A stretch of 55,618 nt of DNA from an uncultured Clostridia bacterium. Its GTDB lineage: Bacteria; Bacillota; Clostridia; Christensenellales; Borkfalkiaceae. The stretch lies in NCBI GenBank assembly GCA_904374385.1, contig CAJFGA010000003.1:1-55618 (forward strand), read 5' to 3'. The notes under the pieces were generated by a model. It worked only from the letters and a program-made list of their open reading frames with translations, was not told the origin of the DNA and made no database searches. Made by a program: the position numbers and the translations under genes. This document shows, piece by piece, positions 4,726 through 39,866 of the stretch (its first letter is position 1; each line of letters begins with the position of its first letter).

Positions 4726-5346
4726 TCAGATCTTAAAGATGTTCATCGCCGTGTTGGAATAGATAAAATCGCCGCCGGAAGATACGATCTGCAATGTGGA
4801 CGGTGTGCTCGTGACCGTAAAAATCTGCGCAGCCGACTGCGCCGAAGTTTCATTTGCAGTCGTAAAAACGTGCTGCGTCGCCGCGCCGGTCAACGTTGTG
4901 CCGTTTAAAGTAAAGACAAGCAGATTGGTTTCGGGCAGGGATGCGTTTTGCTGCGGATATGCCGTGCCGTTATAGATGGCAACGTAGGTGCCGGGCTCGT
5001 CAATATTAAAGTCCGCAGAGTTGTTTGCGTGCGAGATCGCCGTGCCTTCCTGCGTGGAAGTGCGGTCAAAAATAAGCGCCTGACCGCTCGTTACAGGTGC
5101 GGCGGGCGTCGAATACGCCGTCAAAGCCTGCGTTTCCGCGGCGGCACCCGTAGCGCCCGTTGCCCCCGTTGCCCCCGTGGGGCCTGTAGGTCCGGTCGGA
5201 CCCGTAGGACCGGTAGCGCCGGTAGCGCCCGTGCCCGTTGCCCCCGTCGCGCCCGTGGGACCTGTAGGTCCGGTCGGACCCGTAGGACCGGTGGCGCCGA
5301 TAGCGCCCGTGCCTGTCGCCCCCGTGGGGCCTGTGGGGCAGGTAAC
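4726..5346 (-). pseudogene. Collagen-like protein, 3' part (split by the island)
   Basis: C-terminal part of a collagen-like surface protein. Downstream of the attachment site it has about 22 Gly-X-Thr triplets (mostly GPT and GAT), then [14 protein letters not shown] and a ~130-residue C-terminal domain rich in Thr/Ser/Asn, similar in layout to BclA/exosporium-type trimerisation domains. It has no start codon or ribosome site of its own. Its frame runs straight back into the TAA of the serine recombinase. The missing N-terminus is at 39842-40168. Joining 40168-39846 to 5341-4726 gives 939 nt, exactly 313 codons with no internal stop. It is therefore a displaced half of an otherwise intact gene rather than a decayed one. 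Confidence 0.85.
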
Positions 5347-5360
5347 ATATGGGAATTATT
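5329..5360. other. Left attachment junction (attL)
   Basis: Host half-site GCCTGTGGGGCAG (5329-5341), core GTAAC (5342-5346), element half-site ATATGGGAATTATT (5347-5360). The element half-site is the near-perfect inverse of AATAATTCCCTTAT at the right end, and the core is identical and directly repeated there. The recombinase stop codon (5356-5358) lies inside the half-site. Confidence 0.85.
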
Positions 5361-6966
5361 TTGTGGTCTGCCCGCTAGATATAAATTTGTAATAGATATG
5401 AATTTGCCGCGGCGTGTCGTCCGTGACTTTTTCGCCTATGGCAATAAACTCAATAAGCTGCAAGCACATTTCACGCGTCAGTTCTTCGCACTTGGCATAC
5501 CGTTTCAACCGCGTTATGTATTCTTCGACTTCTGCGTCTATGCAGTCTGTCTCGGCAAGCCGTTTTTCAAGCTCGGCGATTTGCCGTTCCGCTCCTTCCT
5601 TTTCAAGCTGATACTTCTCGCATAAACTTTTGCACACGCTTTCAGGGAGGTTTCCGAGAACCTTCTCTTCAAACACAGATTGTATCAGCTTATCTAATTC
5701 CGCGAGTCTGTTCACAAGAGCGCGAAGCTGTTTTCCGTCGGACAGCCTGTTTTGTTCGCCGCATTTTGTCCGTTCACGCAAAAAGTATTCTTTTGCTTTT
5801 TTCTCGTCGATTTTCACATCGCCGAGCATGGAACGGATATCTTGCAGTACGATACTTTCGATCTGCTTTTCGGTAACGGAATGCGACGTGCAGTACTTCT
5901 TGCCGAGGTCAATATAGGTGCGGCAGGAATACATATACGTTTTATTGCTGCCGGCGCTTTTGCCTTTCAGTTTTTTGCCGCAGTCGGCACACACGAGCAA
6001 GCCGGATAACGGATGCACCCGGTTTGCCTTGTCTGCCCGTCCCTGTGCATTTCTGCTGTTTATTGCCTGCACATTTTTCCACATATCTCGGTCAATGATC
6101 GCTTCATGCGCGTTTTCCCTGACGATTTGCTCATTTTGCGGCACGTTCAGCACTTTATGATTTTTATAGGAAAAGCGCGTCGTGCGGTGCTGCGTGAGCG
6201 TACCGATATAGGTCGAGTCTTTCAGAATATCCGAAACGGTCTTCGGCGACCAGTAGGGCGAACCTTGACGGTCAGATTTTTTTCCGTCCAGCCGCGTATA
6301 GTATGCCGTGGGATTGGGGATCCCCTCGTCGGTGAGTGCCCGCGCGATCGTCCTTACGGAATTTCCCTGCAAACGCATATCGTAGATACGCCGCACAATT
6401 TTAGCCGCTTCCTCGTCGATGACCGCCGTGCGGTTTTCGTCCGTCCCCGCTTTATAGCCGTAGGGGTACGCCCAGTTTGTGTACTTGCCCGCCTGCCATT
6501 TGGCTTCCAGCACGGCGCGTATTTTTTTGGAAGTATTCGCCGCGTGCCACTCGTTGAACACGTTCATGATGGGCATCATATCCATGCCCGAACTGCAACG
6601 GTCTGCCGTATCCACGTTGTCCGAAAGGGCGATAAAGCGTATGCCGTAGGCGGGAAAGATATAGTCAATATACTGCCCGACCTGAATATAGTTGCGTCCG
6701 AACCGCGACAGGTCTTTTACGACGATGGTATCGATCTTTCCGTTTTTGGCGTCTTCCAACAGGCGTTTGATCCCGGGGCGTTCGAAGTCGGTGCCCGACC
6801 AGCCGTCGTCGATGTACTCGTCCACGATGGTACCGCCGTTTTCCTCTATGAATTTACGCAGGATAATGCGCTGATTCTCGATCGACATGGACTCGCCCGC
6901 CTTTTCGTCATCCCGCGATAGGCGAAGGTAAATGGCCGTCCTAAGCAGATGTATTTGCTTTGACAT
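5356..6966 (-). CDS. Large serine recombinase (site-specific integrase/resolvase), 536 aa
   Basis: Catalyses integration and excision through a serine-DNA linkage. The resolvase domain spans about residues 9-155, with the catalytic Ser17 in YLRLSRDDE and the arginines of DLSRFGRN (88 and 91). The recombinase domain covers about 165-300, and a zinc ribbon uses Cys326, Cys329, Cys348 and Cys359. A coiled-coil-rich region (about 400-480) follows, then a family C-terminus ending in IHIYYKF. All domains are complete, so the enzyme looks active. The start has a GAGG site 4-5 nt upstream. It follows a 61-residue gene by 8 bp. Its stop codon lies in the attachment half-site, as expected when the integrase is the terminal gene of its element. 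Confidence 0.95.
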   Translation of the reverse strand: MSKQIHLLRTAIYLRLSRDDEKAGESMSIENQRIILRKFIEENGGTIVDEYIDDGWSGTDFERPGIKRLLEDAKNGKIDTIVVKDLSRFGRNYIQVGQYIDYIFPAYGIRFIALSDNVDTADRCSSGMDMMPIMNVFNEWHAANTSKKIRAVLEAKWQAGKYTNWAYPYGYKAGTDENRTAVIDEEAAKIVRRIYDMRLQGNSVRTIARALTDEGIPNPTAYYTRLDGKKSDRQGSPYWSPKTVSDILKDSTYIGTLTQHRTTRFSYKNHKVLNVPQNEQIVRENAHEAIIDRDMWKNVQAINSRNAQGRADKANRVHPLSGLLVCADCGKKLKGKSAGSNKTYMYSCRTYIDLGKKYCTSHSVTEKQIESIVLQDIRSMLGDVKIDEKKAKEYFLRERTKCGEQNRLSDGKQLRALVNRLAELDKLIQSVFEEKVLGNLPESVCKSLCEKYQLEKEGAERQIAELEKRLAETDCIDAEVEEYITRLKRYAKCEELTREMCLQLIEFIAIGEKVTDDTPRQIHIYYKFISSGQTTK

Positions 6967-6974
6967 GATACCTC

Positions 6975-7160
6975 TTATGGAATATTCGATTCTCGACTGG
7001 CCTGTTTTTGGGCGATTTCCAATATTGCGTCACGGATTTCTTTTTTCCCCGTAAAGTGTCGAGTGACGGTATATTTTTTCCCGTCCGCCGTATATTCACC
7101 TTTCGCAGTGGGACAAGAGGCAAACAGTTCCCTCCATTTTTCCGTTGAACGTTGTATCAA
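6975..7160 (-). CDS. Small protein encoded with the recombinase (TnpW-like), 61 aa
   Basis: Starts at TTG 7160 with GGAGG 5 nt upstream and ends 8 bp before the recombinase ATG, so the two are cotranscribed. The central part (GKKYTVTRHFTGKKEIRDAILEI) resembles the short TnpW-type proteins found beside serine recombinases in Tn4451-like elements (pattern: G-x-Y-x-V-x-x-HF, then I-x-D-x-I-L). No enzymatic motif is visible. Candidate roles are a recombination directionality factor or a DNA-binding accessory protein; neither is demonstrated by the sequence. The operon diverges from the lacI-type gene. Confidence 0.65.
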   Translation of the reverse strand: MIQRSTEKWRELFASCPTAKGEYTADGKKYTVTRHFTGKKEIRDAILEIAQKQASRESNIP

Positions 7161-7272
7161 TTTGTCCTCCGATACGATTTATCGATCAGCCTACCTCATA
7201 TATATGACGGAACATATTCAACTTGCGTCATCAGGTTTTTCAAAAAGAAAATAAGAAATTTAAAAAAAGGTA

Positions 7273-7320
7273 TTGACAAACCAAAAAACGTGTGATAATA
7301 TATAAACATGAAACGATTCA
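7273..7320 (+). promoter_or_regulatory. Promoter and LacI-type operator of the lacI gene
   Basis: TTGACA (7273-7278), 17-bp spacer, TAATAT (7296-7301). TGAAACGATTCA (7309-7320) overlaps the predicted start point. It is an imperfect dyad around a central CG, as in LacI/GalR operators, and nearly matches the site at 8403-8414. Autorepression is likely. Confidence 0.75.
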
Positions 7321-7342
7321 TTTTCATGAATTGAGGGGCCAT

Positions 7343-8365
7343 ATGGGAAAAGCGACGATCAAAGATGTAGCAGAGTTATCAGGGCTTGCAATCGGAACGG
7401 TATCTAAATATTTAAATGGAGGAAGGCTCAAAAAGGATAACCGCGCCCGCGTAGAGGAGGCGATCGAAAAGCTCGGATATCAGGTGGATGAGTACGCCCG
7501 CGGACTGATCACCCATAAGACCAAAACAGTAGGGATACTGCTGCCGGAATTAGATAATGCTTTTTACGGAAAGATCGTTTCTAAAATCGAAGAAAATTTA
7601 AGCCGCTGCGGATATGTTGCCGTCGTGCGTGACAGCCGTCGGGATCACGAAAGCGAATTGAAAAGTATCCGTTGGTTTGCTTCCAGGCGCGTAGACGGGA
7701 TCATCATGGTGCCCTGTTGCAATCGGGCGGAAGATTATGCCTTGCTCCATAATATCGGTATTCCCATATTGTTTTTGGATATGTATGTCGAAGGGCTGGA
7801 TGTTGAATTTGTGATCGTCGATAACTGTACGATTGCCAAAAAAGGCGTCAGCTACCTTCTCGATCGGGGGCACAGGGAAATTGCCGTCGTGTGCGCCCCG
7901 GAAGGAGTTTATACGGCGGACAGGCGGTTGGAAGGATATCGGCAGGCTTTCGCCGAAAAGGGAATTTCTTTCAGAGAGGAAAATATTTATCGGGTAGAGG
8001 AAGACGTCGACAAGGCGTACCGTTTGATACGGGATATTTTTCGTAAAAAAGGATGCACCGCTCTGTTTGCATCCAATTTGCCGAGTTTATACGGCGCACT
8101 GTTTGCCGTGAATGAATTGAAGTTGAATATTCCCAGGGATATTTCGCTGCTCGGATTTGACGATATGATGTTTACCAAAATCGTGCGCCCCAAGCCGACG
8201 ATCATCGATCAACCGATCGATAAAATCGCAGAGGTAGCAGGGCGGAGGATCGTGCAGCTGATCGGTCAAAGCGGCAAATACGAATATGGCATGAATTGCT
8301 TGGAATGCAGCCTCAATTTAGGGGAATCTGTGTCCGATCTGCGGACAGAGGGCGGCATGCTTTGA
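7343..8365 (+). CDS. LacI family transcriptional repressor, 340 aa
   Basis: An N-terminal LacI helix-turn-helix (TIKDVAELSGLAIGTVSKYLNG, residues 4-25) with the hinge helix, then a periplasmic-binding-protein-like effector domain (about 60-335) for a sugar ligand. Length is standard. I chose the ATG at 7343 because MGKATIKDVA is the canonical LacI N-terminus and a GAGGGG site precedes it; the predicted transcript starts near 7308, after the longer in-frame start at 7292. Directly downstream is the FucI-type operon with the second TGAAACG operator, so this protein probably senses the sugar, or a phosphorylated intermediate, of that pathway. Confidence 0.92.
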   Translation: MGKATIKDVAELSGLAIGTVSKYLNGGRLKKDNRARVEEAIEKLGYQVDEYARGLITHKTKTVGILLPELDNAFYGKIVSKIEENLSRCGYVAVVRDSRRDHESELKSIRWFASRRVDGIIMVPCCNRAEDYALLHNIGIPILFLDMYVEGLDVEFVIVDNCTIAKKGVSYLLDRGHREIAVVCAPEGVYTADRRLEGYRQAFAEKGISFREENIYRVEEDVDKAYRLIRDIFRKKGCTALFASNLPSLYGALFAVNELKLNIPRDISLLGFDDMMFTKIVRPKPTIIDQPIDKIAEVAGRRIVQLIGQSGKYEYGMNCLECSLNLGESVSDLRTEGGML

Positions 8366-8402
8366 TGCAGAAAAAAGTCGCCCTATGTTTTCCGATAAAA
8401 AA

Positions 8403-8414
8403 TGAAACGTTTCG
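8403..8414. promoter_or_regulatory. LacI-type operator before the isomerase operon
   Basis: TGAAACGTTTCG is an 11/12 palindrome centred on CG and shares TGAAACG with the lacI operator. A weak candidate promoter (TTGATG 8362-8367, 16-bp spacer, TATGTT 8384-8389) would place it just downstream of the transcription start, consistent with repression. Confidence 0.6.
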
Positions 8415-8451
8415 TATTCAACAATAATTTCAAATGCAAGAGAGGAGTTTT

Positions 8452-10206
8452 ATGAAAGGAAAAATCGGTATTCGCCCTGTCATCGATCCGCGCCCGGGGG
8501 CAAGGGAAAGCGTGGAAGGCAAAGCCATGACGATGGCATTAAAGGCAAAAGAACTGATTGAAAAGAATGTATTTTACATGGACGGAACGCCTGCAGAGTG
8601 TGTGATCGCCGAAACGCCGATTGCGGGCTGTGCCGATGCGGTGCGCGTGGCAGAGCAGTTTTCTAAAGAAAACATCGTTGCGACCCTTACGGTTACACCT
8701 ATTTTCTGTTACGGGACGGAAACGTTTGACATGGATCCGTATACGCTGAAAGCGGTATGGGGATTCAATGGGACCGAGCGGCCCGGGGCGGTTTATCTCG
8801 CCTGCGCTATGAGCGGGTATGCGGAACGGGGTCTTCCCGCCTTTTCGGTCTATGGGAAAGATGTGCGCGACCTCGACGACGACGAGATCCCCGACGATGT
8901 GCGCCAACATTTGCTGCGCTTTGCGCGCGGCGCGGTCGCGGTCGGGCAGATGCGCAATACAAGTTACGTTTCCATCGGGAATGTGGCGATGGGGATCCCC
9001 GGCAGCATGATGGAGCCGCAGATTTTGCAGGAATACTTCGGCATGCGTGCGGAATGGGTGGATATGGTAGAGGTCCTACGCCGTATCGAAAAGGGGATCT
9101 ATGACGAAAGTGAATTTCGTAAAGCGCTTTCTTGGGTAAAGTCACATATCCGCGAGGGAAAAGATATCTGCAATCCCGCGGGGAAGGGTCACGACAGGGC
9201 CGCCCTCGATCGGGATTGGGAATTTTCCGTCAAGATGGCGCTCGTCTTCCGCGACATATTATGCGGCAATCCGGTGCTTGCAAAGATGGGGTATAAAGAA
9301 GAGAGTCTCGGTCGCGGGGCGATTGCAGGCGGCTTTCAGGGGCAGAGGCAATGGACGGATTTTCTTCCCAACGGCGATTTTGCGGAGAGTATTCTCAATT
9401 CATCTTTCGATTGGAACGGCGCACGCCGACCGATCGCCTTTGCTACCGAAAACGATACGCTCAACGGGATCACGATGCTTTTGCAGCAGCTTCTGACCGG
9501 ACAGGCGAGCGTTTTTGCGGATGTGCGAACCTATTGGAGCCCCGCATCGGTCGAACGCGCGACGGGGGTACGCCTCAGCGGAAAAGCGGCGGGCGGGTTC
9601 ATACACATGAACAATTCCGGCGCGGCGGCGCTGGACGGGGCTGGCGCCATGAAGAAGGACGGCATCCCCCTTATGAAAAGATGGTGGGAGGTGACGGATG
9701 CAGATATATCGAGCACCCTTGCAGAAGTAACCTACAGTCCCGCAAAACTCGAATATTTCCGCGGCGGCGGCTTCAGCAGTCATTTTGTGACCCGTGCAGA
9801 AATGCCCATGACGATGATGCGCCTCAACCGCATTTATGGAGCGGGGCCCGTGTTGCAGGTAGTCGAGGGGTATTCCGTCGAATTGCCCGAAAGGGTTTCC
9901 GCGGCGATCGAAGCGCGCACCGACCCGTCTTGGCCGACAACTTTTTTTGCCCCTCGTCCTGCAGCCGGAATGGAAGATGCTTACGAAGTCATGGCCAAAT
10001 GGGGCGCAAACCATTGCTGCCTGACGTACGGGCATATCGGCGCGGATGTATTGACGCTTGCGAGCATGCTTCGTATCCCCGTCTGCATGCACAATGTGGA
10101 TCGTAAGGATATTTTCCGTCCGCATGTTTGGGATGCATTCGGCACAAAAAATGCGGAGGGCGCGGATTTTGCCGCATGTAAGGCGTTCGGCCCCCTTTAT
10201 AGGTGA
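8452..10206 (+). CDS. fucI: L-fucose/D-arabinose isomerase FucI family, 584 aa
   Basis: Mn-dependent aldose-ketose isomerase converting L-fucose to L-fuculose; family members also act on D-arabinose (to D-ribulose) and D-altrose. The protein matches FucI along its full length, starting with IGIRPVIDPRPGARE and with the FNGTERPGAVYLA segment. The metal ligands of the E. coli enzyme have clear counterparts: Glu333 (FATEND), Asp357 (FADVR) and His528 (GHIGAD). Cytoplasmic. The ATG at 8452 has a GAGGAG site. It heads an operon with an epimerase and a PfkB kinase instead of the usual fuculokinase and fuculose-phosphate aldolase, so the physiological substrate may not be fucose. Confidence 0.93.
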   Translation: MKGKIGIRPVIDPRPGARESVEGKAMTMALKAKELIEKNVFYMDGTPAECVIAETPIAGCADAVRVAEQFSKENIVATLTVTPIFCYGTETFDMDPYTLKAVWGFNGTERPGAVYLACAMSGYAERGLPAFSVYGKDVRDLDDDEIPDDVRQHLLRFARGAVAVGQMRNTSYVSIGNVAMGIPGSMMEPQILQEYFGMRAEWVDMVEVLRRIEKGIYDESEFRKALSWVKSHIREGKDICNPAGKGHDRAALDRDWEFSVKMALVFRDILCGNPVLAKMGYKEESLGRGAIAGGFQGQRQWTDFLPNGDFAESILNSSFDWNGARRPIAFATENDTLNGITMLLQQLLTGQASVFADVRTYWSPASVERATGVRLSGKAAGGFIHMNNSGAAALDGAGAMKKDGIPLMKRWWEVTDADISSTLAEVTYSPAKLEYFRGGGFSSHFVTRAEMPMTMMRLNRIYGAGPVLQVVEGYSVELPERVSAAIEARTDPSWPTTFFAPRPAAGMEDAYEVMAKWGANHCCLTYGHIGADVLTLASMLRIPVCMHNVDRKDIFRPHVWDAFGTKNAEGADFAACKAFGPLYR

Positions 10207-10210
10207 TGCG

Positions 10211-10894
10211 ATGCTAAAAGGAAAAATTTCCGCTTCGCTGATGTGCAGCGATTTGACAGATGTCCGGACCGGGCTGAAAGCACTGGAAGAGGGCGGCGTC
10301 GAATTCCTTCATGTCGATGTGATGGACGGGGTGTTTGTTCCCAATATCATGCTCAGCGAATCGGTCGTCAAACAATACCGTCCCTTGACGGAAATACCGT
10401 TTGACTATCATTTAATGATTACCGAGCCGGAGCAAAAACTTAGTTGGTTTGGATTTCGCGAGGGCGACATGGTATCCGTCCATTTTGAAAGCACGCCTAA
10501 TATTTGCAGGGCGGTACGCGCCTTGCGTACCCTCGGTGTCAGGACGGGGCTCGCGCTCAATCCGGCAACGCCCGTCACGTCGGCAGAATACCTTCTTCCT
10601 TATCTCGACTTTTTGTTGATCATGACGGTGGATCCGGGATTTGCGGGGCAGCCGCTTGTGGAAACAGCGCTCGAAAAAATTGCTTTTGCCCGAAGGTTTT
10701 TGGACGAAAGGGGGCATGAAAATATTATGATCGAAGTAGATGGGAATGTCAGCTTTGAAAATGCCGCAAAGATGCGCCGCGCCGGCGCAGATATCTTTGT
10801 CGCCGGTACGAGCAGCGTATATGCCAAAGGCCTTACCGTAACGGAAGGAGTGGATAAGCTGCGCAAAAGTATCGGCGGGGAGGGCGTCTTTTGA
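10211..10894 (+). CDS. Ketose-phosphate 3-epimerase, AlsE/Rpe family, 227 aa
   Basis: TIM-barrel epimerase that inverts C3 of a ketose phosphate. Motifs are ISASLMCSDL at the start, HVDVMDGVFVPN (metal His and catalytic Asp), LNPATPV in the middle, MTVDPGFAGQP, and EVDGNVS with the second catalytic Asp. The SLMC, LNPxTPV and TVDPGFAGQ forms are closer to D-allulose-6-phosphate 3-epimerase (AlsE) than to housekeeping Rpe. Likely reactions are therefore ribulose-5-P to xylulose-5-P or allulose-6-P to fructose-6-P. It starts 4 bp after the isomerase stop codon and overlaps the kinase gene by 4 bp, showing tight coupling. Confidence 0.85.
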   Translation: MLKGKISASLMCSDLTDVRTGLKALEEGGVEFLHVDVMDGVFVPNIMLSESVVKQYRPLTEIPFDYHLMITEPEQKLSWFGFREGDMVSVHFESTPNICRAVRALRTLGVRTGLALNPATPVTSAEYLLPYLDFLLIMTVDPGFAGQPLVETALEKIAFARRFLDERGHENIMIEVDGNVSFENAAKMRRAGADIFVAGTSSVYAKGLTVTEGVDKLRKSIGGEGVF

Positions 10895-11799
10895 AAAATA
10901 TTTTTGTCATCGGAAGCGTCAATACCGACATCACGCTGACCGTTTCACGGCTCCCGCAGCTCGGAGAATCTGTGCGGGGCAACGGGATCCTCACGGCACA
11001 GGGGGGCAAAGGTGCCAATCAAGCGATTGCCTGTGCCAAGTTGGGGGGCGAACGGGTGCACTTTGTCGGTGCCGTCGGCACAGATGAGCGGGGCGATGCC
11101 CTGTTAAAATCAGTTTCCGATTACGGCGTCCTTACGGAAGGCTGTGTTCGTGTGCATGGTGCGGAAAGCGGAATATGCGTCATTCTGTTTGATGAGGGCG
11201 CAAACGACAATATGCTCGTGGTCGAGGAAGGAGCGAATGCACTGCTTTCGCCCGATATCGCGGAAGCCTATCTGAAAAAAAATGCAAAAGAAGGCGATAT
11301 TCTCCTCGTGCAGTTGGAAATTTCGTCTGCAGCGGTGCAAGCGGCGCTTAAAACAGGGAAACGCTTGGGATTGTATACCATTTTAAATCCCGCGCCCGCC
11401 CGTGCAGTCGAAGAGGAAATCTTTAAAAATGTCGACCTGCTGATTCCCAATGAAACGGAGTTTCGTGCATTTACAGGAATTGAGGCGAACAACAGCGAGA
11501 ACATTTTAAGGGGATACCAAATTTTGAAAAAGAAGGGGGTGGAGGCATTAATCGTTACGCGTGGAAGATACGGCAGCACCTATGTAGGGGAAGAACAGTT
11601 CGATGTCGCTGCGGTTCCCGTAAAAGCGGTAGACACGACCGCCGCCGGCGACACTTTTATCGGCGCATTGAGCGTTTGTTTGGCGAAAGGCAGCGGAATG
11701 AAAGAGGCGATGCTGTTTGCTTCGCGCTGTGCATCCGTGACGGTTTCAAGAAAAGGGGCGTCACAAAGTATCCCTTATCGGGATGAAATAATCGGCTAA
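10891..11799 (+). CDS. rbsK: Ribokinase-type PfkB sugar kinase, 302 aa
   Basis: ATP-dependent carbohydrate kinase of the PfkB family. The N-terminal signature (GGKGANQAIACAKLG, about residues 35-49) and the C-terminal signature (DTTAAGDTFIGAL, about 249-261, with the catalytic Asp in AAGD) are both present. The closest pattern is ribokinase. Next to a FucI-type isomerase and a ketose-phosphate epimerase it more likely phosphorylates the ketose made by the isomerase (D-ribulose or D-allulose) than ribose; this is inferred from context. The start is TTG at 10891 with GGAGGG upstream, overlapping the epimerase stop codon. Confidence 0.88.
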   Translation: MKNIFVIGSVNTDITLTVSRLPQLGESVRGNGILTAQGGKGANQAIACAKLGGERVHFVGAVGTDERGDALLKSVSDYGVLTEGCVRVHGAESGICVILFDEGANDNMLVVEEGANALLSPDIAEAYLKKNAKEGDILLVQLEISSAAVQAALKTGKRLGLYTILNPAPARAVEEEIFKNVDLLIPNETEFRAFTGIEANNSENILRGYQILKKKGVEALIVTRGRYGSTYVGEEQFDVAAVPVKAVDTTAAGDTFIGALSVCLAKGSGMKEAMLFASRCASVTVSRKGASQSIPYRDEIIG

Positions 11800-11835
11800 G
11801 AATGATAAAAATAAGATTACGGAGGAAACATTGCA

Positions 11836-14724: not shown

Positions 14725-14741
14725 TCGATAAGGAGTGAATC

Positions 14742-16121: not shown

Positions 16122-16173
16122 TCTACGGAGGAGGGGAATGCCTTCGGGTATTCCCCTCGCCGGCGGAGGAAAC

Positions 16174-27029: not shown

Positions 27030-27048
27030 TAGGCTACCTCCGTCCTTC

Positions 27049-30022: not shown

Positions 30023-30101
30023 CAACGGAGGCGCTGCCGGAAACGTGTCAAGTACGGCGGCAGCTTCCGCGGAAATAAATTTATCAAATAAGGAGCAGGG
30101 A

Positions 30102-31769
30102 ATGAAGAAAAGAATTTTAGGTTTGATTGCGTGCCTCATGACGACAGCGATGGTGTTCGGAACGGCCGGATGCGGTGGCGGCGGAACGACGGAAACGCCG
30201 AGCGGCGGGGCCAATACGGAGCGCCCCGCGGGGACAAAGATCGTCGTTTATGCGGGCGGGTCGAGCGAATTTTCCTGGATAGCGGGGAGCGAGGAAACAC
30301 AGGTCATCGACTATATTGAAAACGCATACTGGGAAGATACCGGGAAATCTTTGGATTTTGACATCGCGTATCTCGGCGAAGATATGCAGACCAAACTTTC
30401 CAGCGAACTTGCGGCGGGATCGCAGATAGACATCGTTATATCGCATACCCGCGGCGGCGTGGGCGTCGATGACAAACTGAAGGGCGAAGATTCGCACTAC
30501 AATCTGTACGACGCTCTGTACGACTATGCGCCGAATCTTTACGAAAAGGTCAAGGGCGCGCCCCTCAATTGTCTCACAACGGTGAACAACGACGTGGTTG
30601 GCATTCCGTCGGTCATCAGCCCGTACAAATTCGGGATACTTGTCCGCAAAGATTATATGGAAGCGTGCGGCTATACGGACGATCCCGACAAAGCCGGTAC
30701 GCCTTTCAAAGACGGACAGAATTACCAGCTGGTCGATAATCTCGATACGTTTGCAGAGATGTGCCGCGCGATGAACTCGATTACGGGCAGCAGTTATGCC
30801 GTCACGGGCGCCGCGTGGGATCTGGAAAAAGTGCTTACGCTCGGCGCTTATGCGGATGCGGGATACTTTTCAAGCGCTCTCGTGGAAGAAAACGGCAGGG
30901 AACTCATCATGACAGGCGGCAGCACGCAGGCTTATAAAGATGTGCTTGCGCTGGAATACCAATGGGCTATGACGGGCGTGATCTCCAAGGATGCAAACTC
31001 CATACTTCTGGAAGAAGGGGAATCCAACTTTATTTCAGGAAAGACGGGCGTTTTCGTGCAGGATCCTACCATCCAGCACCTGATCAAAGTTTCCCGCATG
31101 ACAAAAGCGCGCGATCCCGAGGCGGAATTTACGGTGCTCGGGCCGCTGAAAGCGCACAAAGACAGCCCGGACGATCAGAAAGGCTTTATGCGCAATCCGG
31201 AAGCAACATTTGCGGCGGTCATACCCAAGTCGAGTACGAATGTGACGGCGATTATGGGATTTTTGAATTGGGTCTATGCGAACGAAGACAATTACAACCT
31301 GTGCCGCTACGGTATAGAGGGTACGCATTGGGTAGATAACGGAGACGGGACCTATTCTTATCCGGAAGGCAAAGAAAACTATGCTACCCAGCCGCCTTAT
31401 TCCGGAATTCTTACTCTGGTCGAAAATCAGAACATGAGCAACCTGATTTACGAAGGATATTCGGAAGAGGAACTCCGCTGGATCAATGAGATCGCCGGAA
31501 ATCCTGAAAATTATATCGACAATGATGTAATGGATTATTTGTTCGTATCGACTGACCGGTACAATACGATCATGGCGAATGCGGCAGATCAGCTTTACAG
31601 CATGGCGGTCGATGCCTGGACGGGAAAAAGCGATCCGCTGAGCCTTACGACATCGGGCGAAACGGTCTATGATTCCATAGTATCTGCTTACAACCGCTCC
31701 GTCGAAGAGGTGCAGGAATATTATACCACGCAGTACAAAACGATGAAGGCGCAGCGGGAGACCGATTAA
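30102..31769 (+). CDS. Extracellular solute-binding lipoprotein, LplA/LipO type, 555 aa
   Basis: Binding protein of the LplB/LplC importer. The signal peptide ends at the lipobox TAGC-GGGG (Cys near residue 24), followed by a Gly/Thr linker. The length (555) is typical of the large binding proteins paired with LplBC, which bind longer oligosaccharides than MalE-type proteins. The C-terminal third has several Trp/Tyr residues likely to stack on sugar. The start is preceded by AGGAG. The ligand is unknown. Confidence 0.9.
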   Translation: MKKRILGLIACLMTTAMVFGTAGCGGGGTTETPSGGANTERPAGTKIVVYAGGSSEFSWIAGSEETQVIDYIENAYWEDTGKSLDFDIAYLGEDMQTKLSSELAAGSQIDIVISHTRGGVGVDDKLKGEDSHYNLYDALYDYAPNLYEKVKGAPLNCLTTVNNDVVGIPSVISPYKFGILVRKDYMEACGYTDDPDKAGTPFKDGQNYQLVDNLDTFAEMCRAMNSITGSSYAVTGAAWDLEKVLTLGAYADAGYFSSALVEENGRELIMTGGSTQAYKDVLALEYQWAMTGVISKDANSILLEEGESNFISGKTGVFVQDPTIQHLIKVSRMTKARDPEAEFTVLGPLKAHKDSPDDQKGFMRNPEATFAAVIPKSSTNVTAIMGFLNWVYANEDNYNLCRYGIEGTHWVDNGDGTYSYPEGKENYATQPPYSGILTLVENQNMSNLIYEGYSEEELRWINEIAGNPENYIDNDVMDYLFVSTDRYNTIMANAADQLYSMAVDAWTGKSDPLSLTTSGETVYDSIVSAYNRSVEEVQEYYTTQYKTMKAQRETD

Positions 31770-31770
31770 A

Positions 31771-32256
31771 ATGATTGGTTGGATCATCTTTCTTGCATAC
31801 ATGGAGCTGTACTCCGCGGGCGTGATGCTTTTGGCAAAAAAGTGCGGGATCGGAAGATACGGGTTGTGTCTGATTCCTTTCGTTTCCTTCTTTTTTGTTG
31901 ACCGCATCACGGGCGGGTTCAGCGTCTGCGGCATACGCGTCTCAAAATGGGGGAGACAGGTGATCGTGCTTGCGGTCATTTCACTGTGCGCAACAGCATA
32001 TGCCCTTTGGGGCGTATCACACCTGACGGCGGATAACAGCGCGCCTCTGGTACAGGTGATGTGGGTCCCTATTGCGTTCTGCATCCTCGTCTTCTGGCTG
32101 GGAACGGCGTTTTCCGCGGTCCGGATACTCTTTTTGCTGAACGCGAGTTTCCGTCTGGATTGGCTGGTCTGCGCTCTGTTTATAACGGTACCGTTTTTGT
32201 TCATGTTCGTCCGCAATCGCGGAGAGCGGTTTGCGGGCGCGGCATTCTGTGCCTGA
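31771..32256 (+). CDS. Small integral membrane protein, unknown function, 161 aa
   Basis: Four to five predicted membrane helices cover most of the protein (about residues 3-20, 28-46, 65-83, 95-115 and 128-145). Very few charged residues lie in the helices, and there are several cysteines. No family recognised. The ATG follows the binding-protein stop codon by one base, with GGGAG inside the upstream gene, so it is cotranslated with the importer. It could be an accessory membrane subunit. The resemblance to uncharacterised small proteins often placed after solute-binding genes is only one of topology. Confidence 0.6.
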   Translation: MIGWIIFLAYMELYSAGVMLLAKKCGIGRYGLCLIPFVSFFFVDRITGGFSVCGIRVSKWGRQVIVLAVISLCATAYALWGVSHLTADNSAPLVQVMWVPIAFCILVFWLGTAFSAVRILFLLNASFRLDWLVCALFITVPFLFMFVRNRGERFAGAAFCA

Positions 32257-32286
32257 GCATAAATATTTTGAAAATAAGGAGGAAAT

Positions 32287-34134
32287 ATGAAGTTTTTTTC
32301 AAAGATGCTGAGCATTGCTTTCGCGGCGCTGCTGTTGCTGGCGTCTGCGGCCTGTTCGCAGGGAACGCCGAAAGAGGAGGATAAGCCGGATCCCGGAGAA
32401 GTGGATCCGCCCGTACAGACGCAGTATCTGGGGAAGGAAAAATCTCCGGACTATCCGGAGATCTCGGATGATGTCGATTACACCGTTTATTATTTTGATC
32501 CCGAATCGGGCGACGACGCCGAAGACGGGCTGAGCGAAGAAACTGCCAAGGCATCTTTGTCAGAGGCGATGCGGCTGGTTTCGGCCGTAGAGGAAAAAAC
32601 GCCGACAAAGATTCTTTTTAAAGCCGGCAGCGAATACAGCGGTACGCTCACGCTGACCGGGTTTGATGCGAAAGAGGAATCTCCTCTGATCGTCAGTGTT
32701 TACGATCAAACGGAAGAAGATCGATATGTAAAAATCGTCGGCCCGGAGTCGGGCAACTGTGTGGAGATCAAAAGCGGCAATATCCGTGTCAGCTATCTGG
32801 AATGCACCTCGCCTTTAGGCCACCGCGGCATCCATGTGACGACGAACGCCGCCGGAGCGATGAAGAATATCGTCGTTTCCGATTGTTATGTGCATGATAT
32901 TAATTATAATTTGGAAGGAGTCACGTTGCCGGAAGGTGACGAAATGCCGGATACGGCGACGGTACAGCAGATTTGCCCGGACGGGAGGTTCTCTTACAAT
33001 TGCGGCGGGATCATCTTTGAAGCGGATACGCCCAAGGCGAAAGGGCCGAGCTGGTATGAAAACGTATGGGTGGATAACAACATCATCGATAAAGTGGCGC
33101 GCACGGGAATCTGGGTGTTTTCCAACTGGGCGCAGCGCCCGGGCGTTGACTGGGGCAGGAACCCTTATTACGACGATGAAACCAACTGGTTCCACCATTC
33201 CAACGTCAATATCCGCGGCAACCTCATTACATACCCCGGCGGCGACGGGATCATCCTCGGTGTTACGGTGGGCGGTTTTATCGAATACAATACCTGTTAT
33301 CACGCGCAGTATTTGGGCAGGGCGAATTATTATTGTGCGGCGATCTGGTCGCATTCCTGCAAAAATCTGGTGTTCCAGTACAACGAGGCGGCCTATACCC
33401 ATACCGGAAGAGACGGACAGGGGTTCGATATCGATATCGGCAATTCCAACATCCTGTTTCAGTACAATTACAGCCATCACAATGACGGCGGCGGGGTGCT
33501 GTGCTGCCATACTTCTACCAATATCGCGCAGTATGACAAAGAGGGCAATCTTGTTTTGGACGAAGACGGACTGCCAATCATAGAAAAGAGATTTTCCGAT
33601 TGGTCGAACATCATCATCCGCAATAACGTGTTTGCGGACAATGATGTGGCGGATCTGATTTTGAGCGGCCCTGTCCGTGACGTTTGGTTTGAAAACAATA
33701 CGGTCATCAAGAGCGGCATCATCGAAAACGAAAAGATCGTTGATACGAAAGATTTCGGCGGCACGATGTTGCCGGGAGAAAATTTCAATATATCTAACAA
33801 CATCTTTTACAGCCGAAAGGAAAATACGGCGCGCTTTGCAATGGAATTCACCAAATCGTATAACATAGACAACAATGTATATTACGGGTTCGGAGACGCA
33901 TTTGAAACGTACATGCGCGACGAGATAGGGGAAGAGAATTATATTTCCATCGATCCCGGATTCGGGTCTGATCTCGCGGCGAACATCGGATACGAAAGCG
34001 CGATGGTTTTCGTGCCGACTAATGCGGCGCTGTTTGCCAATGCAAAGACGCTCGAAGAGATGCTGAAATATGATTTTGCAGGCAAAGACGTAGAGGGCGA
34101 ACATTATTACGGCGCTTTCGGAACGGCGGCGTGA
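32287..34134 (+). CDS. Right-handed parallel beta-helix lipoprotein, 615 aa
   Basis: A lipobox (SAAC-SQG) near residue 22 anchors it outside the cell, followed by an acidic Pro-rich linker. From about residue 65 (YYFDPESGDDAEDGLSEETAK, the common start of beta-helix polysaccharide enzymes) the sequence has repeated short Asn/Gly-rich strands typical of a right-handed beta-helix: IVVSDCYVHDI, VWVDNNIIDKV, VNIRGNLIT, ILFQYNYSHHNDGGG and WFENNTVI. Such folds serve polysaccharide lyases and several glycosidases. The catalytic residues cannot be assigned by eye. It probably cuts or binds the glycan before import. Confidence 0.8.
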   Translation: MKFFSKMLSIAFAALLLLASAACSQGTPKEEDKPDPGEVDPPVQTQYLGKEKSPDYPEISDDVDYTVYYFDPESGDDAEDGLSEETAKASLSEAMRLVSAVEEKTPTKILFKAGSEYSGTLTLTGFDAKEESPLIVSVYDQTEEDRYVKIVGPESGNCVEIKSGNIRVSYLECTSPLGHRGIHVTTNAAGAMKNIVVSDCYVHDINYNLEGVTLPEGDEMPDTATVQQICPDGRFSYNCGGIIFEADTPKAKGPSWYENVWVDNNIIDKVARTGIWVFSNWAQRPGVDWGRNPYYDDETNWFHHSNVNIRGNLITYPGGDGIILGVTVGGFIEYNTCYHAQYLGRANYYCAAIWSHSCKNLVFQYNEAAYTHTGRDGQGFDIDIGNSNILFQYNYSHHNDGGGVLCCHTSTNIAQYDKEGNLVLDEDGLPIIEKRFSDWSNIIIRNNVFADNDVADLILSGPVRDVWFENNTVIKSGIIENEKIVDTKDFGGTMLPGENFNISNNIFYSRKENTARFAMEFTKSYNIDNNVYYGFGDAFETYMRDEIGEENYISIDPGFGSDLAANIGYESAMVFVPTNAALFANAKTLEEMLKYDFAGKDVEGEHYYGAFGTAA

Positions 34135-34159
34135 GCGGAGGCATTAAAGGGAGGTAAAT

Positions 34160-37100
34160 ATGAGAAAAAGAATATATCTTTGCATAGCCGCGCTCGTCCT
34201 CATGTTTGCGGCGGCGGTCGGATTTACCGCTTGCGGCGGTCAGACGACGGGCGGATCGGACGGTTTTTTGCTGGCTGAAGGCGCAAATATGGTATGGCTG
34301 GACCGCTATGAAGAAGCGGATGTGGTTTTGGCGAGCGGAGACTCCGCCTCATTGGACTGGAAATCTTCGGACGAAAGCATCGTGACCGTACAAAGCGGGC
34401 TGTTGATCGCACAGGGAGAAGGAGAAACGACGGTCACGGTATCGGACGGCAATAAGACGGAGACGATCACCGTCAGAGTGCGCGATTCGGGCATTAAGCC
34501 CAGGTTTTCCTTTGACGAAGCGGACGCGTTTTTGGGCGAATCGGTTTCTTTCCCGAACACCATCACGTATAACGACAAAATTTATACGCCCGAACTGGAG
34601 TTTGAGATCTCATTTGCCGACGATTCCTACGCCTCTTTTGAAAACGGCAAAATAACCGGGATGAAACTCGGCTCAACCACGGCAACGGTTTCGGCTCCGT
34701 ACAAGGGGATTACTTTGGAAAAGACGATTGCGATCAACGTCAAGGAACCGCTGAATATCGTCGTCGAGTCCTCTGAGGTGGAAATCTACAATGTGGAAGG
34801 TAAATTCGGCGAGGCGGAGCTGGTCGCAAGAGCGATGTACCTCGGCGAAGAAGTGAGCGGCGCCAAGATCACATACAGCGCAGTCAGCGGCGCGGACTGC
34901 GTGACGATCGACGGCAGTACGGTAAAGGCAGAAAAGGAAGGAGCCGCTGTCATTCAGGCATCGTATTCAGACGGCGACACTACCGCAACGGCGCAAATTT
35001 CCGTAACAATACTGCCGAACTACGTAGAAACGACTTATGAGAACGTGAGCTTTCATGATATCACGTGGAAAGAATATGACGGGGAGATCGGCGGCCGTAC
35101 GGGCGTGATCGAATACAAGGCCGGCGCCGACATTACGCCGGACACCTGTTTCGATCATCGCGTGGCGGAAGCGCACGCGGGCGATAAGCTGCTCACACTT
35201 TATGCGCAGGGCTACCGCTATTTTACATACGATCTGTATTATACGAGCAATCAGAACCTGATGATCGGTACAGGCCCGTTTACCTCGTGGATATCGGTAG
35301 GAGACTTTTTCCGCAAAGATTATTTCAAAATAATTTCCGACGGAAAAGTGACCAATATCCTCGAAAAAGATACGTGGATGACGATGGTTTACGACCTGAA
35401 GGCGTTATGGATGTCGGATATCGGCATGACAGCAGATTTCTTCTTCTTTGTCAACGATGCAACGACTTCGCAGTATATCACCGATGTGCGTTTCTACATG
35501 GACGACGCTTTTATTCCGAGCGAAAATCTCGTATATGAAGACTGCGGCGATTATGTGCAGGCCACGAACGACGAATTCGACGTGATGATCCCCGTTTCGC
35601 GCAATTACAGCATGGATACGGGGCTGCCTTCGACAGTGGTGAATCCGGGAGAAGCGCCTGAGTATGGCGAATACGGCGGCACCGTCGGCGGCCGCAACGG
35701 TGCCTATGTGTACCGCACGAACATTTCGGACGGTTGGAAAAATTCGCTCATCGTAGCAACGTCTATGAATCAGACGTATGACGACAGCATGTACGCGCTC
35801 AACAGCCGCGGATCATATCTGACCTTCGATATTTATCCGGAAGAGGCGGATACGCTCATTTTCCGCATCAACCATCTCTCTGATACGGCGACGATAAAGG
35901 TCGGTTCGACCAATCTCGGACAGTTTGACGGCTGGCTGTACGTGATCAGGGACGGAAAGATACAAAATACGATTGAAGCGGGCGTATGGCAGACTGTCTG
36001 CCTCGCGTACAGCGACAATTACAGGGAAGACTGCGTTGGCGGATCGATAACCTTTTCTGCCGAAACGTCGGGCAGCGTCATATTTATCGACGACGTCCGC
36101 TACCGCAAAACGTCCGATTTCCTTCCGGAAGAATTTGCGGAAGAGACATATGCGCCTGTATTGGACAACGCGGCGCAGAACGTATCTCTGGAGCGCGTGA
36201 CCGCAGGAGAATTCAAGGGTGCGTACAAATATGAAAACGGGACGGGATCGGCAGACGCGGAAAACGGCCTGACATTCAAAAATCTGTTGAATTCTGACGG
36301 AACGGCAGGGGAATTTTTCACGGACGGGTATCAGTATATCCGTATGCAGTTATATCTGTCCGATAGTGTATCGTCGATCGTGCTGAACGTTTCGGGCGAC
36401 GGATTGGAAGCCTATCGGAAGGAGATCAGACCGGGAGAAGCGTTTGACGGAATCCCCGTCTTTACGCAGGATGAAAGGCAGACGAAGACGATCTCTGCCG
36501 GGGTATGGTATGACTTTTATATACCCGTATCCTGTCAGGGCTCCGTTTCCGCTGAAGCGGATGTGCGTCTGGTCGCTGTGGGCAGCGGAAGCACCCCGGC
36601 TGCGCTGTATCTTAAAAACGTCAGCTTTGAAGTGAGCGTTCAGACTCCTTACCTGCGCGAAGGCACCGGCGGCGTTTCGCTGGAACTGCTGACGAGCGGA
36701 GAGTTTAAGGGCGCATGGAAGTATGTCAACCGTACCAGCGGCGAAGAAGTCGGCGAAGGGCAGAACTGGGGCGAAAGCGGCGTGCTGTTCAGCAGAGTGA
36801 CGCAGCCGGACGGCAGCGGGCCTGCGGCGTTCTTCAACGAGGGATATCACTGGATCAAGGTGGATATCTATGCGGCGGAAAACATCAGTTCCCTGTCCGT
36901 GCGCAGCACCGCGGACAGAAATTATAATTCGTACTGGGAACGCGAAGTATCCGTCGGCACATCGCTGTATAACTTCTCTCTGTATCTGTTCGACGCTTCC
37001 GGCGATCGGGCAAACAGGTTTGAGCGCAATACCTGGTACACGCTGTACATCCCCGTAGATTATTCTTCCCTGGATATCGGGTACGTATATATCATGCTGT

Positions 37101-39763
37101 ACTCCAACGGCGGAAGCAGTGCGGCTCCTTCGGTCATGTACCTTAAGAATATAGAATATCTTGAAAACTTTACCGTTCCCGATCTCGTCATCCCCGACGG
37201 CACGCCCATCGTGCGCGATACGGCAGACTATATCGATTATGTGACGGTCGAAGAACAGACATCCGGACACTTTGAAGGCTCATATAAATATACGAACACG
37301 TCCGGCGGGCAGGACGAGAGCGGAAGCAAGCCTAACTACGGCGAAAGCGGCGTATATTTCTGGAATGTAGTCAATCCGAATACGGGAGAAGCGGGCGCAT
37401 TCTTTACGCAGGGATATAAATGGCTGAAAGTACCGGTGTATATCGAAAGCGGCGCAGAATCGATTTCCATCCGCGTCAGTGCGCAGTGGAATCTCACGCA
37501 GTATTGGCCGCAGAACATTCCCGTCGGCGAAGAGTTTTCGCCCGAGATTCTCGGTCAGGCATATATCTGCGATGCGGACGGCGTACGGGTAAGCCTCATC
37601 GAAACGGGCGTCTGGTACGATATATTCATCCCAGTAGATTATACCGATACGGAAGTAGGCATCGCTTACGTATGCATATACTCCAACGGGGGAACGGCCG
37701 AAGAACCGTCCGTCATGTATATAAAGAAAGCAGAATTCCTCAAAACGTTTGACGTGCCGGAGTATCCGGCGGAAGAACCCGCCGATCCGAGCGTAGGCAA
37801 CCTCTATGTGCGCGACGATCAAAAGGACAAAGCGAGCGTCGTTAAAGATGAAGAAGGCGTGTGGACCTACACGAACAAGTCTGGCGGACTCAAAGATGCA
37901 AATCCGACTTACGGCGAAACGGGCGTGTTCTTTATGGAAGTTTCGGCGGGCAGTTTCGATTACAGGCTCGTCCGCACGGAAATCAAAATCGGCGAAAATG
38001 TTTCATCCATAACTCTGCGTTTCGGCGAGCTGACGATGGGGCAATCGTATTGGGTGGAAGAGATCATGGTCGGAGAGGCCCTGCCCGCGCGGACGATCTA
38101 TCTGTACGACGAGTCGGGCAATATGGCGGAGAGTCTGGAGCGCGGCGTCTGGTATACGCTGTATGTTCCCGTAGATCTTGCATCGCTCAACAGCATTCAG
38201 GCGAACGGCGGCAGCGAAGCGGCGCCTGCGGTGATATATCTGAAAAACATCCGCTATGTAAACGAAATCAGCGAAACGTCTTCCTATGTTTTCGGCGATA
38301 CGGTTACGCAGGATTCCGGCATGAAGAAGTTTGTTTCGTCCGGTACGGAGAGGATGTATGTCAACGGCGTTTCTCGCGGCGGCGTCAGTACTGAATTTGA
38401 AAGCACGGGCGAATTTTTCCGGGCGGGATTCCACGTCGTGAAGATGGATGTCATGTTTTCGGATAACGCATCATCGCTGACGTTTGTGTTCGGCGGAAAT
38501 GCAAACGGCGGACAGACGAGCGAATATACGTTTACGGTAGGCAGCGGCGCCATTGGAAACGCAAAGATATTGGATGCGGATGGCAGAGCGGTCGCAACGA
38601 TCGAAAGCGGCGTCTGGTACAGCGTTTTCGTATATCTCGATTATACGCAGACGACGGGCTGGACCGACTTTTATGCGACGCTCGGCGGCGGATCGGCGGA
38701 CGCTGCGGCGGTTCTGTACGTGAAAGACGCAGAATTTATGAAGGAGTTCCCCGCAGAAGAACCGCAGACGAAAGAGGGCAACCTTTTCGTTCGCGATGAT
38801 TATGCCGACAGGGCAAGTGTTGTGAAGGGCGAAGACGGAGTATGGACTTATACGAACCGTACCAGCGGCATAAAGGAAGGAAATTCTCAGAATTGGGGCG
38901 AAGCCGGCGTATTCTTTACCGAAGTCACGGGTGACGGGACCGGAGGAGAGTTTTTTGAAGAGGGGTACCGCCTCATCCGAATGGAAATTAAGATCGGCGA
39001 AAACGTTTCTTCCATAACCCTGCGCTTTGGCGCCAGCACGAGCAGCTCTTATTGGATAGAAGAGATCATGGTCGGAGCGGCGCTTCCCGGCCGTACGATT
39101 TATCTGTACGACGAATCGGGCAACATGGCGGAGAGCCTGGAGCGCGGCGTCTGGTACGTTTTGTATATTCCCGTCGAAGACGCAACGGCTCTGAACAGCC
39201 TTCTTTCCAACGGCGGCGGCGAAACGGCCCCGGCGGTGATGTATCTGAAAAATATCACGTATGTGAACCAGATCAGCGAAACGTCTTCCTATGTGTTCGG
39301 CGATACGGTTACGCAGGACACCGATGCGAAAAAGTTCACCTCTTCGGGTGAGGAAAAAATGTTTGTAAACGGCGTTACGCGCAGTAATGTCAATACGGCA
39401 TTTGAAAGCACGGGCGAATTTTTCCGGGCAGGATTCCATGTCGTGAGGATGCAAGTGCGGTTCGCGGAAAACGTATCCGCAATGACATTCACTTTTGCGG
39501 GAGATGTCAACGACTGGTCGCAGGCTGTCTCTTCTGTAACGGTAGGCGGAGGAATTTCTGGCACGGCGGCCGTCTTTGATGAAAGCGGAGCGGCTGTCGA
39601 AACAATCGAGCGCGGCGTTTGGTATACCGTTTGTGTTTCTCTCGATTATACGCAAACGACGGGCTGGTCGGAGTTTGCCGTCACGCTCAGCGGCGGTACA
39701 GCAGACGCGCCTGCCGTCATATATGTAGGCGAAGTAGAATTTTTGAAACAGATGCCTCAATAA
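34160..39763 (+). CDS. Giant multimodular surface lipoprotein, 1867 aa
   Basis: A lipobox (TAC-GGQ) near residue 26. Residues 30-115 form a bacterial Ig-like (Big2) module (SLDWKSSDESIVTVQSG), and two more Ig-like stretches follow to about 300. The rest is a series of ~150-residue beta-sandwich modules with a shared plan: a start such as GEFKGAWKYVNRTSG, then NWGESGVLF, a FFxEGYxxIxxxIY strand, SSIxL, and GVWYxLYIPVD near the end. The last two ~320-residue blocks are near copies. No catalytic motif was seen. The plan suggests repeated carbohydrate-binding modules that give avidity for a polymer. It is the last gene of the island at this end and has GGGAGG before its ATG. Confidence 0.8.
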   Translation: MRKRIYLCIAALVLMFAAAVGFTACGGQTTGGSDGFLLAEGANMVWLDRYEEADVVLASGDSASLDWKSSDESIVTVQSGLLIAQGEGETTVTVSDGNKTETITVRVRDSGIKPRFSFDEADAFLGESVSFPNTITYNDKIYTPELEFEISFADDSYASFENGKITGMKLGSTTATVSAPYKGITLEKTIAINVKEPLNIVVESSEVEIYNVEGKFGEAELVARAMYLGEEVSGAKITYSAVSGADCVTIDGSTVKAEKEGAAVIQASYSDGDTTATAQISVTILPNYVETTYENVSFHDITWKEYDGEIGGRTGVIEYKAGADITPDTCFDHRVAEAHAGDKLLTLYAQGYRYFTYDLYYTSNQNLMIGTGPFTSWISVGDFFRKDYFKIISDGKVTNILEKDTWMTMVYDLKALWMSDIGMTADFFFFVNDATTSQYITDVRFYMDDAFIPSENLVYEDCGDYVQATNDEFDVMIPVSRNYSMDTGLPSTVVNPGEAPEYGEYGGTVGGRNGAYVYRTNISDGWKNSLIVATSMNQTYDDSMYALNSRGSYLTFDIYPEEADTLIFRINHLSDTATIKVGSTNLGQFDGWLYVIRDGKIQNTIEAGVWQTVCLAYSDNYREDCVGGSITFSAETSGSVIFIDDVRYRKTSDFLPEEFAEETYAPVLDNAAQNVSLERVTAGEFKGAYKYENGTGSADAENGLTFKNLLNSDGTAGEFFTDGYQYIRMQLYLSDSVSSIVLNVSGDGLEAYRKEIRPGEAFDGIPVFTQDERQTKTISAGVWYDFYIPVSCQGSVSAEADVRLVAVGSGSTPAALYLKNVSFEVSVQTPYLREGTGGVSLELLTSGEFKGAWKYVNRTSGEEVGEGQNWGESGVLFSRVTQPDGSGPAAFFNEGYHWIKVDIYAAENISSLSVRSTADRNYNSYWEREVSVGTSLYNFSLYLFDASGDRANRFERNTWYTLYIPVDYSSLDIGYVYIMLYSNGGSSAAPSVMYLKNIEYLENFTVPDLVIPDGTPIVRDTADYIDYVTVEEQTSGHFEGSYKYTNTSGGQDESGSKPNYGESGVYFWNVVNPNTGEAGAFFTQGYKWLKVPVYIESGAESISIRVSAQWNLTQYWPQNIPVGEEFSPEILGQAYICDADGVRVSLIETGVWYDIFIPVDYTDTEVGIAYVCIYSNGGTAEEPSVMYIKKAEFLKTFDVPEYPAEEPADPSVGNLYVRDDQKDKASVVKDEEGVWTYTNKSGGLKDANPTYGETGVFFMEVSAGSFDYRLVRTEIKIGENVSSITLRFGELTMGQSYWVEEIMVGEALPARTIYLYDESGNMAESLERGVWYTLYVPVDLASLNSIQANGGSEAAPAVIYLKNIRYVNEISETSSYVFGDTVTQDSGMKKFVSSGTERMYVNGVSRGGVSTEFESTGEFFRAGFHVVKMDVMFSDNASSLTFVFGGNANGGQTSEYTFTVGSGAIGNAKILDADGRAVATIESGVWYSVFVYLDYTQTTGWTDFYATLGGGSADAAAVLYVKDAEFMKEFPAEEPQTKEGNLFVRDDYADRASVVKGEDGVWTYTNRTSGIKEGNSQNWGEAGVFFTEVTGDGTGGEFFEEGYRLIRMEIKIGENVSSITLRFGASTSSSYWIEEIMVGAALPGRTIYLYDESGNMAESLERGVWYVLYIPVEDATALNSLLSNGGGETAPAVMYLKNITYVNQISETSSYVFGDTVTQDTDAKKFTSSGEEKMFVNGVTRSNVNTAFESTGEFFRAGFHVVRMQVRFAENVSAMTFTFAGDVNDWSQAVSSVTVGGGISGTAAVFDESGAAVETIERGVWYTVCVSLDYTQTTGWSEFAVTLSGGTADAPAVIYVGEVEFLKQMPQ
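37798..39751 (+). repeat. Tandem duplication of a ~970-bp coding block
   Basis: Block 1 (about 37798-38757) and block 2 (about 38779-39751) encode two near-identical double modules. Long exact stretches recur about 980-1020 bp apart, for example the segments encoding YLYDESGNMAESLERGVWY, SETSSYVFGDTVTQD and FESTGEFFRAGFHVV. Block 1 lacks about six residues where block 2 has GDGTGGEFFEEGY. Confidence 0.8.
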
Positions 39764-39772
39764 GTAACAGCG

Positions 39773-39798
39773 AGCGCCGCCGGATATCCGGCGGCGCT
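39773..39798. terminator. Perfect 26-bp palindrome after the giant gene
   Basis: AGCGCCGCCGGAT and its exact complement, 10 bp after the stop codon. No T run follows, so it may be a weak terminator or an mRNA-stabilising hairpin. It lies 34 bp from the right attachment half-site. Confidence 0.5.
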
Positions 39799-39831
39799 TA
39801 GAACTAAAAATACAGTATGGAATGGCTCTGT

Positions 39832-39866
39832 AATAATTCCCTTATGTAACCTGCTCTGTAGGTCCG
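39832..39866. other. Right attachment junction (attR)
   Basis: Element half-site AATAATTCCCTTAT (39832-39845), core GTAAC (39846-39850), host half-site CTGCTCTGTAGGTCC (39851-39865). The element half-site is the inverse of the left one (13 of 14 positions). The host half-sites of the two ends also form an imperfect inverted pair. Confidence 0.85.

Follow-up and report, generated by a model that had tools for sequence, protein, structure and literature searches.

A sugar-utilization island in a collagen-like gene of an uncultured Clostridia bacterium and a clade of serine integrases that probably target collagen-repeat DNA

The window analysed here is a whole contig of 55,618 nucleotides (CAJFGA010000003.1, assembly GCA_904374385.1) from an uncultured Clostridia bacterium of the Borkfalkiaceae, in which a collagen-like gene is split by an island encoding a large serine integrase. 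The source genome amounts to 1.96 Mb in 101 contigs and is 89.6% complete. The N-terminal part of the gene, a Pfam Collagen match up to the crossover threonine codon (ACA), lies at 39857-40168 on the minus strand, and the C-terminal part, comprising the remaining Gly-X-Y repeat and a C-terminal domain, lies at 4726-5334 on the same strand, lacking its own start where it meets the island. The genome has no collagen match besides these two halves (C-half match, 5140-5304). The integrase (5356-6966, minus strand) is a complete protein of 536 amino acids with Resolvase, Recombinase, Zn_ribbon_recom and DUF4368 domains, the first three of which together mark it as a large serine recombinase (LSR). 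By sequence comparison we placed the crossover dinucleotide AC at 39858-39859 in the N-side junction (attR) and at 5333-5334 in the C-side junction (attL), both on the minus strand, giving an island of 34,525 bp. Each is flanked by a 26-bp attP arm: the right arm, AGAGCAGGTTACATAAGGGAATTATT on the minus strand, at 39832-39857, recognized by its dyad with the other arm, and the left arm at 5335-5360 (minus strand), adjoining the integrase stop and recognized by the dyad and by a CCC-N16-AC spacing. In the integrated state the frame of the N-terminal part continues into the element codons EQVT and then stops.

A sequence-only reading of this DNA had already described an island with sugar cargo inserted in a collagen-like gene, and had identified the complete integrase. 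The insertion stands, with its boundaries now moved to the AC pairs; the open reading frame (ORF) given for the N-half (39842-40168, minus strand) is present, and the C-half frame is open and ends at 4726 on the minus strand. That reading took GTAAC as the crossover core and predicted a unique attB, CAGGTAACCTG, within a restored gene of 939 nt. GTAAC does occur at both junctions (5342-5346 and 39846-39850) and is symmetric in both products, and the half-sites adjoining it are near-inverse copies (13 of 14 positions, by eye). The 939-nt join is also open, but it includes seven extra codons, EQVTCPT, which interrupt the run of Gly-X-Y triplets. Joining the halves at AC instead yields 918 nt of open, uninterrupted Gly-X-Y, with the frame restored as programmed excision elements restore theirs. 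The EQVT and VTCP codons beside the junctions are element sequence, and GTAAC, which is repeated inside attP, is not the crossover core.

The predicted joined site should be present in relatives with intact genes. In a sample of 40 genomes of the genus, 14 have an intact collagen-like gene (one of them, G016, additionally has an element N-end); all 14 genes are plain repeats without the EQVTCPT break, and the predicted site occurs in none of them. Two pattern searches for the empty site gave unrelated hits alone, in 5 of the 40 genomes (all through one motif) and in 8 of 398 genomes (never within a collagen gene). By the refuting condition attached to the sequence-only reading itself, its att prediction therefore fails. 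In addition, GTAAC is not common to both ends of other elements, and the sequence from GTAAC to AC stays constant among near-identical elements lying in different genes and therefore belongs to the element. We consider the GTAAC model very improbable. A crossover at AC would make attB plain collagen-repeat DNA, which is present in the intact relatives, and so explains why the 939-nt site is missing. We also considered that the ancestral attB might have contained EQVTC as an interruption in frame, an idea dropped once the arms were found to travel with the element. What survives of the earlier proposal of a gene-restoring serine-integrase island is the predicted in-frame restoration and the symmetric attP; the specific attB, attP and joined gene do not. 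In this dyad 22 of 26 arm positions pair, against a mean best of 10.8 and a largest value of 15 in 2000 shuffles.

We compared the integrase with related rows from other genomes, 41 of them distinct sequences at ≥55.8% identity and 84 at ≤52.4%. Collagen sequence lies within 220 bp at the exact CCC-N16-AC spacing for 31 of the 41; no such junction was found for any of the 84, five of which have less than 70 bp downstream. Among the remaining ten, two (L113 and L115) run off their contigs and one (L064) has a broken frame with the junction nonetheless present. In a tree of 61 rows (all those longer than 400 amino acids and above 55% identity, plus 21 chosen distant rows), the 31 collagen-linked integrases and seven others form one clade of 38 rows with support of 100/100. 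Y13, R15 and S17 are invariant in the clade alignment. The earlier view of a single site was thus too narrow: the island belongs to a set of elements spread across the family, and most of these carry other cargo. Collagen-linked integrases come from 4 of the 18 genera sampled (g1, g3, g8 and g10), and the g3 and g8 rows fall within a supported set of 16 rows (96/85) alongside rows of the window's genus, a mixture such as transfer between genera would be expected to give.

Thirteen elements for which both ends could be compared allowed us to locate the crossover. A and C form the only adjacent pair of bases identical between the ends in 13 of 13, while the base before AC matches in eight and the base after it in five; the ends further agree in all 13 at positions -2 (C) and +3 (G). 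The attP dyads of these elements pair at 13-22 of 26 positions. Four near-identical elements in four genomes (L122, L123, L124 and L143) set the edge of the element directly. Ahead of AC, identity over 200 bp is 98-100% with no gaps in all six pairs. Past AC, the very first base already differs, identity over the next 30 bp is 47-80%, and a 200-bp stretch can be aligned at 73-91% only at the cost of 32-126 gap positions. AC is thus the putative 2-bp core of an attP × attB exchange of the LSR type.

The position of AC within the codon is also constant. All 20 N-ends of the AC type accepted from our list stop at Gly-X-Thr, and one more (G018) read by hand does so too, with 1 to 61 Gly-X-Y units ahead of the junction. 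Two elements, L120 and L099/G101, are reversed, so that the integrase abuts the oppositely read N-part. Their codons at the junction are Gly-Ala-Val and Gly-Pro-Val, respectively, in which GT on the gene strand corresponds to AC on the integrase strand, an orientation that a non-palindromic core would predict. The 14 intact genes have 1 Val and 633 Thr at that position, and because Val is so rare there and only two cases are available, we regard this agreement as suggestive only. By hand, we counted 17 of the 40 genus genomes in which one or more element ends lie in a collagen gene (G000, G006, G008, G009, G011, G016, G017, G018, G019, G020, G025, G026, G030, G031, G032, G034 and G037). In two cases, G183 (L225/L096) and L114, two elements sit in one collagen gene with a segment of repeat between them, only a few codons long in L114.

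We conclude, with high confidence, that these are islands of a TnpX-like, DUF4368-containing clade of large serine integrases whose chromosomal attB is collagen Gly-X-Thr repeat DNA. Comparison among the elements supports the junctions, their spacing, the 2-bp core, the codon phase, the spread over four genera and the varied cargo, whereas enzyme activity, excision, passage between cells and any benefit or regulation are matters we infer. In the context ..CCN-AC-NGG.., the codons of adjoining triplets form an imperfect dyad centred on the AC of a Thr codon. In the proposed mechanism, the integrase would pair attP, whose two 26-bp arms flank AC, with a single repeat of a collagen-like gene. Cutting at AC and exchanging strands would insert the circle in a fixed codon phase and in an orientation set by AC, leaving an N-part that ends in element sequence and a C-part deprived of its start. 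On excision, the repeat would be rebuilt exactly.

Several observations weigh against this conclusion. The attB sites show weak dyad symmetry (8-16 of 26), and our main junction finders demanded AC and the Gly phase, so that the 20 of 20 agreement is partly built in. A looser junction scan covered 39 rows, of which 29 could be scored; AC was recovered in 25, and the other four took a wrong upstream anchor. The N-end of G020 departs from the rule. Three of the 41 integrases (L059, L061 and L063) do not abut a C-half, a collagen C-half lying further along, and four more have no collagen junction, two inside the clade (L091 and L127) and two just outside it (L098 and L109). Some blastn alignments cross the junction (L122/L124 at 92%, L117/L229 at 90%), a consequence of the relatedness of the C-halves. 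Finally, all the genomes (G-numbers) and integrase loci (L-numbers) come from draft or metagenome assemblies. Repeats break assemblies, and several junction contigs, L006 and L096 among them, end near the site, so unrelated contigs might have been joined artificially at collagen repeats. Nevertheless, 31 distinct integrase rows, drawn from many genomes that were assembled independently, show this same exact junction, and long contigs such as L129 and L131 contain both ends, which makes such an artefact barely credible.

The four related integrases located elsewhere and the weak attB dyads would also suit a broadly multi-targeting integrase with a loose preference, for which collagen genes are merely frequent landing places; Durrant et al. 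(2022, PMC10083194) describe DUF4368 as common in multi-targeting recombinases. That 31 of 41 integrases nonetheless lie at collagen genes, of which a genome has few (the window's has one), with constant codon phase and spacing, makes this explanation improbable. The multi-targeting LSRs of that study resemble the collagen-linked integrases in domain set, including DUF4368, in having a 2-bp core and in using several target places; the difference is that the motif here is the coding repeat of one kind of protein, read in a fixed codon phase. Durrant et al. call an LSR multi-targeting when one 90%-identity integrase cluster occurs in more than three target gene clusters, and the near-identical integrases L122, L123, L124 and L143 lie in four genomes beside differing collagen sequence, four being here a count of genomes and not of target gene clusters. 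The word collagen is absent from the main text of PMC10083194, and we found no description of integrases targeting collagen repeats in the open-licence PMC literature, including look-ups of terms in PMC10083194 and PMC12884075.

We also weighed the possibility that the island is a domesticated intervening element whose programmed excision turns on a collagen-like surface or spore protein, as in skin and heterocyst elements. The fdxN element (XisF) and the skin elements are comparable in that each has a serine recombinase and interrupts a gene, which excision would make whole. The seamless in-frame join fits this idea, as do 13 C-halves that remain in frame to the usual end (12 by script and L006 by hand, in a test that detects only C-halves matching over 100 amino acids with this C-terminal domain). 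The same side is favoured by median pN/pS, which is 0.469 for the 11 interrupted genes (55 pairs, 18 with undefined dS) and 0.415 for the 14 intact ones (91 pairs, 25 with undefined dS); for interrupted versus intact it is 0.432 (154 pairs, 39 with undefined dS). The split gene is, moreover, the sole collagen gene found in the window's genome, which also has a SpoIVA homologue, as do 33 of the 40 genomes of the genus; a role of the collagen-like protein at the spore surface would be compatible with this homologue. Against programmed excision, insertion points (1-61 units) and cargo vary between species, unlike in programmed elements, and near-identical elements occupy different genomes; together with the 14 genus-mates that have uninterrupted genes, these points favour ordinary mobility. 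The undecayed C-half fits recent insertion and occasional excision alike. The integrase's XisF match is weak, at 110.1 bits against a cut-off of 375. Domestication therefore seems to us quite unlikely.

Directly upstream of the collagen-like gene lies a family-2 glycosyltransferase with tetratricopeptide repeats (40165-41244, minus strand; Pfam), which belongs to the host rather than the island. Look-alike glycosyltransferase ORFs, judged by eye and not domain-scanned, stand beside the gene in L119, L125 and L126, which suggests that the collagen-like protein is glycosylated. One could combine these features with a repeat-targeting clade and suppose that the Thr-locked phase and seamless excision make the island a reversible on/off switch for a glycosylated surface or spore protein; we think this unlikely.

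The cargo region of the window (7292-39763) reads on the plus strand, apart from an AraC regulator on the minus strand. As the sequence-only reading had proposed, it is mostly devoted to sugar import and breakdown. By Pfam it encodes LacI and AraC regulators, fucose isomerase, ribulose-phosphate epimerase and a PfkB kinase; a solute-binding protein and two permease pairs; and glycosidases of the rhamnosidase type and of GH35, along with CBM_X2, DUF6259 and DUF2961 proteins. A beta-helix protein and a 1867-amino-acid protein with an HL_N-beta (hyaluronate-lyase N-terminal) domain complete the set. Among 22 island ORFs scanned with Pfam, four of them without any family match, we found no phage structural family (PHROGs not searched) that would indicate a prophage, and no relaxase or conjugation family that would indicate an integrative conjugative or mobilizable element. 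A phage origin was rejected: a scan of viral_contigs gave 43 pattern matches and no relative, and among the matches listed from phage and plasmid records the best reach 35-36% identity.

Besides the window, nine elements were scanned for cargo, some ORFs of each, and their contents differ widely. The roughly 17-kb element of G034 carries a nitrogen-assimilation cluster (L046 2687-17750, plus strand) with glutamine synthetase III, the ammonium transporter AmtB with P-II, parts of glutamate synthase (GltB), asparagine synthase (AsnB) and CTP synthase. The 8.4-kb element L131 carries a complete-looking Gabija defence pair, GajA and GajB (3453-7212, plus strand), and L125 a DUF4143 ATPase matching a candidate defence family. 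L111, whose integrase is 80% identical to that of the window, has uracil permease and UPRTase; L119 has an M60 peptidase, G011 a rhamnosidase and a trehalase, and G009 GH3, LRR, LacI and transglutaminase proteins. L129 encodes redoxin proteins, and G020 a beta-helix protein together with a histidine kinase. In G009, L129 and G020, several large ORFs had no family match. AC-to-AC distances range from 3.6 kb (L125) through 4.2 (G183), 4.4 (L111), 5.4 (L126), 6.0 (L119), 8.4 (L131), 10.8 (L129 and G135), 11.7 (G122), 11.8 (G011), 17.3 (G034) and 34.5 (window) to 38.2 kb (G009).

Among solved structures, the best match of the clade profile is TnpX of the Tn4451 type (2mhc, E 2.5e-37, residues 5-115). 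Tn4451 has a GA core and resistance cargo, whereas the core here is AC. The best NCBIfam match is CcrB, at 138.5 bits against a cut-off of 900, well short of Ccr-family membership. Staphylococcal cassette chromosome (SCC) elements, which use Ccr, are likewise serine-recombinase cassettes with varied adaptive cargo; they insert in rlmH rather than in a collagen gene. Integrases are usually viewed as recognizing either a single unique site or a short, loosely defined motif. A coding repeat, as the target here appears to be, would track a protein family across genera, offer dozens of equivalent sites per gene and fix the codon phase. The clade provides a directly testable case for how target choice evolves in serine integrases, and it may mark a path for sugar, nitrogen, nucleobase and defence genes to move among uncultured bacteria.

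Directly upstream of the integrase is a small ORF of about 61 amino acids with a TTG start (6975-7160, minus strand). Of the clade members whose upstream sequence sufficed, 13 of 36 have a similar small ORF with a TRHF-type motif, against 1 of 76 others, and we would guess that the one in the window might encode an excision helper. It belongs to no Pfam or NCBIfam family, and a suspected identity with TnpW was not confirmed. A read-through fusion of integrase and C-half was also considered and is unsupported, since their relative frames differ between elements. A tRNA-Arg (CCG) gene of the window, at 41394-41468 on the plus strand and 1.5 kb away from the island, does not serve as its target. 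The G011 element (L040) has an attP-like palindrome with an AG core near 10115 (plus strand), inside the island just after the integrase, and a collagen C-half with its own attL-like arm 6.5 kb further on; it is perhaps a tandem or rearranged element.

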